A stretch of 64,000 nucleotides of DNA from Desulfoferula mesophila (GTDB taxonomy: Bacteria; Desulfobacterota; Desulfarculia; Desulfarculales; Desulfarculaceae). Positions 45,198 through 50,481 of the stretch are shown in pieces. A model generated the notes under the pieces. It was not told the origin of the DNA. It saw only the letters and a program-made list of their open reading frames with translations, and did no database searches. Within the stretch, counting starts at the first letter, position 1, and the number at the start of each line of letters is the position of its first letter. The stretch lies in the NCBI RefSeq assembly GCF_037076455.1, contig NZ_AP028679.1, positions 759,501 to 823,500 of the forward strand. Reading direction: 5' to 3'. Made by a program: the position numbers and the translations under genes.

Positions 45198-46508
45198 ATG
45201 ATCGAAGCATATGAAAACGATCCCCGGCTGGAACGCTATCTGATCGCCTTTCAGAAGGGGCAGACCATCTTTTTGGAGGGCGACGAGTCCCAGGACCTCT
45301 ACGTGTTGCTGGAGGGCGAGCTGGACGTGCTCAAGGGCGACCAGGTCATCAGCATCCTCTCCGGGCCCGAGGCGGTTTTCGGTGAGATGTCCTTTTTGAC
45401 GGGCGACAAGCGCACCGCCTCCATCCGGGCCCGCAGCCAGGGCAAGGCCCTGCAGGTGCCCCGCGGAGACATCGGCCAGTTTTTGCAGCAATTCCCCCGG
45501 CTGGGCAAGAACATGGCCCAGGTCCTGGCCCAACGTTTGGAAGCCACCAACGACCAGCTCTTCGGGCTCAAGGAGTTCTGCGACATGCTGCCCGACGCGG
45601 TGGTGCTCACCGACCAAACGGGCAAGGTGACCGCCCTGAACCGGGCGGCCTCGGAGCTCTACGGCCGCGATTGGCAGCAGGCGGGCCACCGCCCCATGGA
45701 CGAGCTTTTCGACCAGGGGCATCTGGTGCGCGAGATGGCCTGCCAGGTGCGGGGAGGGGAGCCTTGCCAGGAGCAGGTGGTATGCTGCCAGCATCCCCAA
45801 AGCGGCTCCCGCTTCGTTTCCCTGAGCTTCAGCGCCCTCTATGACGCCCAACAGGATTTCAAGGGCCTGCTTTTGGTAGGGCGCGACGTGACCGCGGTGG
45901 AGCGTCTCAAGCTCCGCATGCGCCGCCTGCGCGTCTGGCTCATCGCCGCCCTGGCCGCCCTGGTGCTTTGCGTGGTGGGCATGGCGGTATATCCCTACCT
46001 GATCACTCAAAGCAACCAGGAAACCCAGTTGCACGAAACCTTCCGCATGCAGATTAGCCGGGACCACCTGTTGCTGCGCTCCCTTTTGGCCGAGGATCTG
46101 GCCAAGGGCAACCTGGACCGGGGCGAGGATCTGCTGCGCCGCTTTTTCGCCACCCCCTCGGATGGCGGGCTGCCGCTCACCGGGGTGGTGGTGCTCGATC
46201 CCGCCAAAAAGGTCTTGGAGGCCTATTATCCCAAGGGGGCGGACGAGGCCCAAAAGCCGGGCGCCAGCTACGGTCACATCCCCTTTGAAGGCGAAAGTAA
46301 GGACCAGCACCGGGTGCTCAAGGTCTTCCACCAGGGCCAGGGCGACAGCGGCAGTTGGGAAGAGTTGCTCATGGCCTTCCCCCTGAGCTATCAAGGCAAG
46401 GACCTGGGTTGGCTGCTGTTGGGCCTGGACCCCAAGGTTTTGCAAAAGCGCTACGACCTGGATCATGCGGAGCTGATCAAGCTGAACCTCGCGCCGTCCA
46501 AGGAATAA
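45198..46508 (+). CDS. Cyclic-nucleotide-binding/PAS protein with one membrane helix and an extracytoplasmic C-terminal domain
   Basis: 436 residues. Residues about 15-125 form a cNMP-binding (Crp-type) domain (GDESQDLYVLLEGELDVL, VFGEMSFLTGDKRTASIRA). A PAS domain follows (about 135-235; MLPDAVVLTDQTGKVTALNR), then one helix (about 248-270). The last ~165 residues should lie outside the membrane, with a Cache-like pattern (LTGVVVLDPAKKVLEAYYP). No kinase, cyclase or DNA-binding output is present. The order, sensors inside and a third sensor-like domain outside, is unusual. Confidence 0.8.
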   Translation: MIEAYENDPRLERYLIAFQKGQTIFLEGDESQDLYVLLEGELDVLKGDQVISILSGPEAVFGEMSFLTGDKRTASIRARSQGKALQVPRGDIGQFLQQFPRLGKNMAQVLAQRLEATNDQLFGLKEFCDMLPDAVVLTDQTGKVTALNRAASELYGRDWQQAGHRPMDELFDQGHLVREMACQVRGGEPCQEQVVCCQHPQSGSRFVSLSFSALYDAQQDFKGLLLVGRDVTAVERLKLRMRRLRVWLIAALAALVLCVVGMAVYPYLITQSNQETQLHETFRMQISRDHLLLRSLLAEDLAKGNLDRGEDLLRRFFATPSDGGLPLTGVVVLDPAKKVLEAYYPKGADEAQKPGASYGHIPFEGESKDQHRVLKVFHQGQGDSGSWEELLMAFPLSYQGKDLGWLLLGLDPKVLQKRYDLDHAELIKLNLAPSKE

Positions 46509-48062: not shown

Positions 48063-48099
48063 AACTTGACGGAAGTGTGACTCTGGCGTAGGAGATAAG

Positions 48100-48275
48100 A
48101 CAACATAGAGGAAACGGCGCCGCGAGGCTTAATAGGGAAGACGGTGTGATACCGTCGCGGTCCCGCCGCTGTAACCGGGGACAAGGGTCGCCACTGGCCA
48201 CTGCCGCTCATTAGAACGGTGGGAAGGCGCGGCCCAAGGATGATCCGGGAGCCAGAAGACCTGCCGTTTCTACCG
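48100..48275 (+). promoter_or_regulatory. Cobalamin riboswitch 1
   Basis: Conserved B12-element blocks appear in order: AATAGGGAAG with GGTGTGAT, GCGGTCCCGCCGCTGTAA, the B12-box core GCCACTGG, GGGAAGGCG and GAGCCAGAAGACCTGCC-like (here GGAGCCAGAAGACCTGCC). It begins about 40 nt after cobQ and is followed by a 7-bp stem CTGCCGA/TCGGCAG and an intrinsic terminator, fitting transcriptional control. Confidence 0.92.
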
Positions 48276-48361
48276 AAGTATCTGCCGACGGTGATCGGCA
48301 TCGGCGGCCCGTTGGCCGCTTGGCTTCGGCAGGGGAGATCAAGCAAACTGGGTGCAGTCCC

Positions 48362-48390
48362 TCCGTTCCGTAAGGAACGGGGGTTTTTTT
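48362..48390 (+). terminator. Intrinsic terminator between the two riboswitches
   Basis: The stem CCGTTCC/GGAACGG with loop GTAA is followed by a run of seven T. It is the likely expression platform of riboswitch 1: with cobalamin bound, transcription should stop here before riboswitch 2 and btuB. Confidence 0.88.
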
Positions 48391-48454
48391 ATGGCCGGCC
48401 CCGAATGGCTAGCGGGGCCTTGACGGGAGGCAAAGGCCTCCCGGCATAGCGGAC

Positions 48455-48595
48455 TGGATGCGTGGAAGTGGCGTGAGATTCGCCCGCTGCCCCGCAGCCG
48501 TGAGGGGAACGAAAGCCCGAGATGCCACTGTTGCGCGTTGCGCGATGGGAAGGCGGGCCGGTAGGCAGCCCCGAGCCGGAAGACCCATCCAGCCC
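48455..48595 (+). promoter_or_regulatory. Cobalamin riboswitch 2
   Basis: Second full set of B12-element blocks: GTGGAAGTGGCGTGAGATTC, CGCTGCCCCGCAGCCGTGAG, ACGAAAGCC, GCCACTG, GGGAAGGCG and GAGCCGGAAGACC. It ends about 25 nt before the btuB ATG, with the ribosome-binding site GAGGGAGGAAAG right after it. No terminator follows, which suggests control of translation initiation. Confidence 0.92.
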
Positions 48596-48618
48596 AGGAA
48601 CCTCGAGGGAGGAAAGTA

Positions 48619-50481
48619 ATGAGGAAATCGCTGATTATGATGGCGGGGCTGGCCTTGCTGGCAGCCCAGGCCGCGCCTGCTTGGGCCGCGGAAGCCGCTT
48701 CCCAGGAGGACGGCAAGACCGAGGCGATCAAGCAGAGCGAGATGGTGGTAACCGCCACCACCACCGAGGAGAACATCAACAAGGTTCCCTCCACCACTTT
48801 CGTGGTTACCGACCAGGAAATCACCGAAAAGGCCCAGTGGAGCCTGCCCGACGCCCTGCGCGACGTGCCCGGCCTCTACATCCGCAGCAACGGCCCCTTT
48901 GGCGGGGTCACCAGCCTGAGCATGCGCGGCACCCAGTCCGGGCAGACCATGCTCATGCTCGACGGCGTGCGCCTGGGCGACCCCATCAGCACCAACGGCT
49001 CCTATGACATGGCCAACCTGCTCACCGGCGGCATCTCCCAGGTGGAGGTGGTGCAGGGCCCGCAATCCACCCTGTACGGCTCCGACGCCATGGCCGGCGT
49101 GGTCAACATCATCACCAAGCGCGGCCAGGGCGCGCCTACCGGCTGGGCCTCGGCCGGTTACGGCTCCTACAACACCTGGCAGGGTACCGCGGGCACCCAG
49201 GGTCAGATCGACCGCTTCAATTTCATGCTCAGCGGCGGGGGCATCAGCACCGACGGCGTCTCCAAGGCCAAAAGCGGCAGCGAGGACGACCCCTACAACG
49301 CCTATCAGTTCAACGGGCGCTTCGGCTTCGACATCAACGACAACACCGAGGTCTACTTCATCGGCTATTACAACAAGGCCGACACCGACTACGACGGCTG
49401 GGTCAACGGACAATTCGTCGATACCCCGGACAGCATGACCACCGAGGCCTACACCGGCATCCTGGGCTTGACCAACTCGCCCGTCTCTTGGTGGAACCAG
49501 AAGCTGACCTTCTCCTATGGTTCGGTGGACAACGACTACAGCGACGACTCCACCTACAAGTCCTATATCACCACCGCCCAGTGGCTGAACAACCTGCTCT
49601 ACAAGGACATCAACACCTTGACCCTGGGAGTGAACTGGCAGCGGGAGCAGGGCGAGTACAGCACGGTTTGGGACAGCCTGCCCGAGCAGTCGATGGACAC
49701 CCTGAGCTTCTACCTGCAAGACCAGCTGAAGGTGCTGGAAGGCCTGTACCTGTTGGGCGGGGTGCGTAACGACGACTACGAACACTTCGACAACAAAACC
49801 ACCTGGCGGGTAGGCGCCTCCTACACCATCGCGGTCAGCGATACCACCTTCAAGGGGACCTACGGCACCGGTTTCAAGGCCCCCAGCCTATACCAGCTCT
49901 ACAGCCCCTACGGCGACCAGGACCTGAGCCCGGAGACCAGCAAGGGCTGGGACCTGGGCGTGGTGCAGATGCTGTGGAACAAGCGCATCGAGCTGGGGCT
50001 GACCTACTTCAACATCCAGACCGACGACCTGATCAACTTTGACATGAACACCTGGACCTATCAGAACCTGGACCAGGTGAAAAGCCAGGGCGTGGAGTTC
50101 TACGCCAGGGCCAACCTGCTGTCCTGGCTGTCGGCGGACTTCTCCTGGACCTATACCGACGCCCAGGACGAGGCCACCGGCAAGGAGCTGGCCTACGATC
50201 CCCGGGACAAGGGAACCCTGGGCGTGCGCTTGCCGCTCATGGGCGACCGCCTCAACATCAGGGTATGGGCCTTGTACGTGGGCAACCGCTACGCCGACGC
50301 GGCCAACACCACCGAGTTGGACCCCTACGTCACCGTCAACGCAGCGGCCACCTACAAGATCACCAATTGGCTCAGCGTGTACGGCAACGTGGTCAACTTG
50401 ACCGACGAGGACTACGTGGAGATCCAAGACTACACTACCCTGGGCCTCAGCGGCTTTATCGGCCTGCGCGCCGACTTCTAG
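48619..50481 (+). CDS. btuB: TonB-dependent outer-membrane receptor, cobalamin type
   Basis: 620 residues. The signal peptide ends near AWA-AEA. A plug domain follows (KQSEMVVTATTTEENINKVP as TonB-box region, LPDALRDVPGLYI, MLMLDGVRLGDP, VEVVQGPQSTLYGSDAMAGV). A 22-strand barrel rich in aromatic residues closes with LRADF, a typical terminal phenylalanine. The gene is preceded by two cobalamin riboswitches, so the transported compound is very probably cobalamin or another corrinoid. No btuFCD genes follow; the inner-membrane importer must be elsewhere. Confidence 0.92.
   Translation: MRKSLIMMAGLALLAAQAAPAWAAEAASQEDGKTEAIKQSEMVVTATTTEENINKVPSTTFVVTDQEITEKAQWSLPDALRDVPGLYIRSNGPFGGVTSLSMRGTQSGQTMLMLDGVRLGDPISTNGSYDMANLLTGGISQVEVVQGPQSTLYGSDAMAGVVNIITKRGQGAPTGWASAGYGSYNTWQGTAGTQGQIDRFNFMLSGGGISTDGVSKAKSGSEDDPYNAYQFNGRFGFDINDNTEVYFIGYYNKADTDYDGWVNGQFVDTPDSMTTEAYTGILGLTNSPVSWWNQKLTFSYGSVDNDYSDDSTYKSYITTAQWLNNLLYKDINTLTLGVNWQREQGEYSTVWDSLPEQSMDTLSFYLQDQLKVLEGLYLLGGVRNDDYEHFDNKTTWRVGASYTIAVSDTTFKGTYGTGFKAPSLYQLYSPYGDQDLSPETSKGWDLGVVQMLWNKRIELGLTYFNIQTDDLINFDMNTWTYQNLDQVKSQGVEFYARANLLSWLSADFSWTYTDAQDEATGKELAYDPRDKGTLGVRLPLMGDRLNIRVWALYVGNRYADAANTTELDPYVTVNAAATYKITNWLSVYGNVVNLTDEDYVEIQDYTTLGLSGFIGLRADF

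Follow-up and report, generated by a model that had tools for sequence, protein, structure and literature searches.

The leader of a btuB-like gene in a 64-kb stretch of the Desulfoferula mesophila genome (hereafter, the window) raises the question why two cobalamin riboswitches should stand one behind the other in front of a single gene, how each of them would act on that gene, and whether the pair arose by duplication or was assembled from different sources. The elements of this locus are, from 5' to 3':

48066-48094, + strand: promoter-like element TTGACG-N17-TAGGAG, with a predicted transcription start near 48101
48098-48282, + strand: aptamer 1, a cobalamin riboswitch with all helices (P1 48110-48118/48263-48271; L5 UCCCG 48161-48165; RF00174, 118.8 bits)
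48273-48329, + strand: three-way-junction domain 3' of aptamer 1 P1 (closing helix 48273-48278/48324-48329; hairpin H1 48283-48300; second hairpin 48301-48323)
48332-48364, + strand: antiterminator-like hairpin, stem A (GGGGAGAU-CAAGCAAACUGGGUGCA-GUCCCUCC), whose 3' strand is the 5' arm of the terminator
48360-48390, + strand: intrinsic terminator (10-bp stem and 4-nt loop at 48360-48383, T7 at 48384-48390)
48391-48450, + strand: spacer with two GC-rich hairpins (about 48394-48443), reduced to 31-32 nt in two relatives (G002 and G003)
48451-48595, + strand: aptamer 2, a divergent P2-less cobalamin riboswitch (P1 48451-48460/48586-48595, with covariation; L5 CCCCG 48490-48494; RF00174, 67.4 bits; aptamer 2 CM R1)
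48601-48612, + strand: P13 hairpin CCUC-GAGG-GAGG of aptamer 2, which contains the Shine-Dalgarno (SD) sequence GGGAGG and whose loop GG could pair with L5
48619-50481, + strand: gene for a btuB-like TonB-dependent receptor of 620 aa (TIGR01779, E 1.7e-85; 1nqe, E 1.8e-45)

A search of the full window against all Rfam families (cmscan) yields exactly two matches above the cut-off, both to the Cobalamin family (RF00174, gathering cut-off 31.5 bits) and both on the + strand; matches below the cut-off were regarded as chance and left out. The match to aptamer 1 covers the full model (positions 1-189, E 3.4e-29), and that to aptamer 2 (48464-48584, E 1.8e-14) covers model positions 47-167, with P1 and P2 of the model lying outside it. 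The P1 helix of aptamer 2 is present directly around the match and brings the aptamer to its full extent; P2, a helix that varies within the RF00174 family, is absent, and a P2-less start (model position 45-47) is also seen in other above-cut-off RF00174 matches. In the conserved core, 59 of 66 conserved columns match in aptamer 1 and 46 of 56 in aptamer 2. P1 of aptamer 1 is mostly paired across the eight genomes of the genus, and in P1 of aptamer 2, 7-8 of the 10 pairs are unbroken in all eight, with pair 5 alternating between U-A and G-C. Because of the E-values and the retention of the whole arrangement in all eight same-genus genomes, chance matches are excluded. A sequence-only reading of this DNA had claimed two cobalamin aptamers in series, and the covariance search accepts both of them; the leader, from about 48066 to 48618, is slightly wider than the extent given there, 48100-48600. 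The source genome, a single 4.48-Mb contig, contains four cobalamin riboswitches, namely, the btuB pair and two singles.

In six relatives, a BtuB search combined with an Rfam search over the genus finds both aptamers upstream of the orthologous btuB gene (64-83% identical). The seventh relative, G007, has two contigs that are broken within aptamer 2, and the part common to both shows the same tandem. Thus, all eight genomes have the tandem together with its terminator and sequestering hairpin, and a single promoter-like element upstream of it, and comparison of the eight leaders reveals compensatory base changes in the terminator, both P1 helices, H1 and the SD hairpin. The product of the downstream gene scores 287.8 bits against the NCBIfam B12 receptor model TIGR01779, under the curated cut-off of 599.7, and its best match among solved structures is E. 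coli BtuB. The gene upstream of the leader is cobQ, for cobyric acid synthase; adjoining cobQ, at 45198-46508, is a gene for a protein with cyclic-nucleotide-binding and PAS domains, in which a domain search found no kinase domain.

The region between the aptamers comprises two structures that compete for the same RNA strand. The terminator is far more stable than expected (-19.1 kcal/mol, z -4.5; none of 200 shuffles as stable), and its pairs 2-11 are unbroken in all eight genomes, several of them having changed on both sides. The pairing of stem A exceeds that in 500 of 500 shuffles, as scored with an imperfect automatic parser that weakens the observed signal, and its loop, CAAGNAARCUGGGUGC, is present in all eight genomes with small variation only. 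Folding of nascent and longer RNAs indicates that the two structures are mutually exclusive: with P1 assumed to be formed, in almost every genome, RNA that reaches the terminator loop adopts stem A, and longer RNA adopts the terminator. Folding of the full unbound leader gave no view of switching, with the aptamer misfolding in silico and the terminator arm pairing with various sites. Between P1 and stem A, the closing helix of the junction domain varies in sequence and can still pair in most genomes of the genus, and the stem of H1 covaries. H1, with the loop CGGUGA, is a candidate for P13 of aptamer 1; its loop CGG complements the CCG of L5 only in G000, G004, G005 and G007, with no obvious CGG in the other four genomes. 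A small ACUG/CAGU hairpin around GGGUG was also considered as P13 and rejected, its stem not being kept in the relatives.

The same stem A with its near-invariant loop occurs behind many single cobalamin riboswitches of Desulfarculaceae (14 such loci), and the conservation of the loop exceeds what pairing alone requires. The strict form of this motif is nearly confined to Desulfarculaceae, with one strict match in another family (G145).

In the second platform, the SD sequence lies within P13 of aptamer 2 and ends 6 nt 5' of the ATG at 48619. The hairpin is found in all eight genomes, with a CCUC/GAGG stem in seven and a compensatory CUUC/GAAG stem in one (G006); in isolation, its stability is no better than that of shuffled sequence (z 0.17). 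Both the anatomy and the covariation bear out the placement given in the sequence-only reading, with an intrinsic terminator with a T7 tract after the first aptamer and the end of the second at the btuB ribosome-binding site (RBS); that reading had proposed that the first aptamer acts on transcription and the second on translation.

A TTGAC-N18-TA(G/A)(G/A) element precedes aptamer 1 at the identical place in all eight genomes; its -10 box is weak, and a simple consensus scan misses it. A separate promoter between the aptamers, which had been named as a ground for discarding the sequence-only reading, was not found in conserved form by a promoter scan and by comparison of the eight leaders at the sequence level. 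Such a promoter would make the btuB mRNA on its own, so that only the second riboswitch would control btuB and the first would end a separate short RNA; the spacer of G000 does contain TTGACG, at 48420, but this hexamer lacks an adequate -10 box and is not kept in other species, and the spacer shrinks to as little as 31 nt, which makes this scenario highly improbable. The spacer hairpins vary in sequence and keep their pairing, the second (GGGAGGC..GCCTCCC) repeating the SD sequence and its complement; perhaps, they have a role in insulation.

The sign of each switch can be approached by comparison with characterized riboswitches. Upon corrinoid binding, according to published work (PMC10653944), L5-L13 kissing promotes the RBS hairpin of translational cobalamin riboswitches and, in one repressing riboswitch that acts on transcription, the terminator; transcription-acting cobalamin riboswitches have been detected by RNA-seq in Gram-negative bacteria (PMC12121620). 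Judging from its sequence, aptamer 2 directly fits the published translational kissing-loop scheme (PMC10653944). Repression by aptamer 1 is suggested by the gene context and by the sign that riboswitches of this class usually have; the anatomy does not fix the sign of this switch because an arrangement like the overlap of stem A with the terminator gives activation in one published riboswitch. Were the first riboswitch ON, with corrinoid stabilizing stem A and blocking termination, and the second OFF, btuB would be expressed within a band of corrinoid levels, and the two B12 riboswitches of this leader would together make a naturally occurring band-pass filter for a B12 importer. The mutual exclusion of stem A and the terminator is indeed like that of P13 and the terminator in the activating cobT riboswitch of A. 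halodurans (PMC10653944), L5 has a potential partner in the GGG that is invariant in the stem A loop, and in most genomes the 3' strand of P1 could form a helix with the GGGG of stem A. However, H1, which adjoins P1, is a better L13 candidate than the stem A loop, this platform also stands before genes apparently for uptake and biosynthesis (as named, behind the single riboswitches of the family, from N-terminal sequence only), which are normally repressed, and a corrinoid-activated B12 importer would be unusual; we consider this arrangement of signs quite improbable.

The most plausible interpretation, and in our assessment a probable one given the sequence features, is that the btuB leader is a two-checkpoint, transcription-then-translation OFF/OFF tandem cobalamin riboswitch derived from two lineages. 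The RNA would start from a single promoter directly in front of aptamer 1. At low corrinoid, the nascent RNA behind aptamer 1 would form stem A with the terminator 5' arm, allowing read-through, and with aptamer 2 also empty, the SD hairpin would be open and btuB would be translated. When corrinoid is bound, aptamer 1 would favor the terminator, such that most transcripts would end near 48390, and in those that escape, an L5-L13 kissing loop in aptamer 2 would stabilize P13 and hide the SD sequence. With both switches OFF, expression would therefore require both aptamers to be empty, and the expected outcome, by analogy with bi-mechanism SAM tandems, is that repression multiplies and becomes tighter, with existing mRNA shut off late.

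The two halves of the leader differ in origin. Over 117 shared columns, the identity between the two aptamers is 66%, and in a tree of 65 aptamers (few columns, with the deeper forks unresolved) their respective orthologues form separate clades with 100/100 support, aptamer 1 being placed among the ordinary riboswitches of the family and aptamer 2 at the end of a very long branch. With a covariance model built from aptamer 2, five genomes from other families of the phylum (G114, G069, G157, G146 and G077) give scores of 97-123 bits, and scores elsewhere in the order of the genus reach 81 bits at most. Four of these five relatives have a single riboswitch, and in each an SD hairpin much like that of the btuB leader, typically CUCGAGGGAGG, comes directly after the aptamer. 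Aptamer 2 belongs to a translational subtype that, outside the genus, has its best relatives in other families of Desulfobacterota. The identity level, the separate clades and the kin of aptamer 2 in other families together imply that two different modules were combined; recent duplication, which had been dismissed already from the sequence alone, is rejected by the tree and the 66% identity. In the sister genus (G008, BtuB 52% identical), btuB is preceded by a single aptamer of the first type, followed by stem A and a terminator; the second aptamer was not found in that leader. In the simplest history, the ancestor of the genus already had the transcriptional riboswitch in front of btuB, and a translational one was inserted between the two; alternatively, the second aptamer was lost in G008.

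Distinct ancestry, together with the 66% identity, could also mean that the two aptamers sense different corrinoids (differing in the upper or lower ligand), in which case the leader would be a NOR gate for two inputs instead of a steeper switch for one. The sequence-only reading had proposed either a steeper response or sensitivity to two different corrinoids. The missing P2 of aptamer 2 is the only structural hint of a difference in selectivity, and swaps of P2-L2 or the P6 accessory altered corrinoid selectivity in one published chimera (PMC9600662). Against this, both aptamers match most of the conserved core columns, among them the AAGAC segment toward the 3' end, and a study of 38 riboswitches found none that responded to just a single corrinoid (PMC9600662); such a division of labor seems unlikely. 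Under the preferred two-checkpoint reading, this leader would be a conserved case in which cobalamin riboswitches of different ancestry have been joined and one gene is checked at transcription and then at translation; with the single-switch version in the sister genus and the second switch alone in distant relatives, each half is testable in its natural context.

Tandem architectures of this kind have precedents. Bi-mechanism tandems are an established architecture, and a survey of 44,270 genomes reports 26 tandem AdoCbl doublets (Sherlock et al. 2022, PMC9481103); these doublets resemble the btuB leader in consisting of two same-orientation cobalamin riboswitches, each with its own expression platform, but the article lists them as pseudo-cooperative, unsorted by mechanism, whereas the btuB leader has a terminator followed by an SD hairpin and two aptamer lineages. 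The bi-mechanism SAM-II/SAM-V tandems described in the same article share with the btuB leader the order of a transcription stop first and a translation block second, but combine two SAM classes, whereas both aptamers here belong to the cobalamin class. The two btuB riboswitches are adjacent and on the same strand, with the terminator first and the RBS second and, as judged from sequence, no intervening promoter. Among single riboswitches, the repressing corrinoid riboswitch of Priestia megaterium metE (PMC10653944) is similar in L5-L13 kissing (CCG/CGG; putative in the btuB leader) and in opposing an antiterminator to a terminator, but its antiterminator uses the P13 3' strand, whereas the btuB leader uses a separate hairpin with a conserved loop. 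In the E. coli btuB riboswitch (PMC10653944), a kissing loop, as proposed for aptamer 2, promotes an RBS-blocking hairpin before btuB, but the riboswitch is single. AdoCbl riboswitches in tandem are thus already known, as is the bi-mechanism principle (PMC9481103); a literature search found no published bi-mechanism AdoCbl pair, nor a published match for the combination of a bi-mechanism cobalamin pair, two aptamer lineages and genus-wide conservation.

Tandems had been claimed to be rare, and the counts agree: in the complete list for Desulfarculaceae, the only RF00174 pairs less than 500 nt apart are the btuB tandems of this genus, and among the 94 matches listed for 29 genomes of the phylum, one per genus, no tandem was found in the 28 other genera, in line with the small number of doublets in the published survey. 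Three further tandems were identified in unrelated Desulfobacterota, G088, G121 and G042, which suggests that the tandem cobalamin arrangement arose more than once. Their occurrence in three other families, in two cases before TonB-dependent receptors, suggests that very stringent control over the import of corrinoids has been selected for repeatedly.

In the G088 tandem (L130, G088:C352:1916-2344), the terminator comes first and the second riboswitch adjoins the RBS of a gene for a TonB-dependent receptor, the best-scoring family of which is not BtuB. The G042 tandem (L093, G042:C221:6733-7235) has sister aptamers with two terminators, before a BtuB-like receptor, and, by sequence comparison, looks like a true duplication. 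The G121 tandem, in which the first riboswitch has a terminator and the second an RBS-sequestering hairpin (z -3.6), precedes a gene for an outer-membrane-type protein of the Phenol_MetA_deg family. In two Desulfobacterota families, Phenol_MetA_deg outer-membrane-type proteins are encoded directly behind cobalamin riboswitches (L129:1401-2153 and L132:1172-1954), one of these being a tandem, and such proteins are candidate corrinoid channels.
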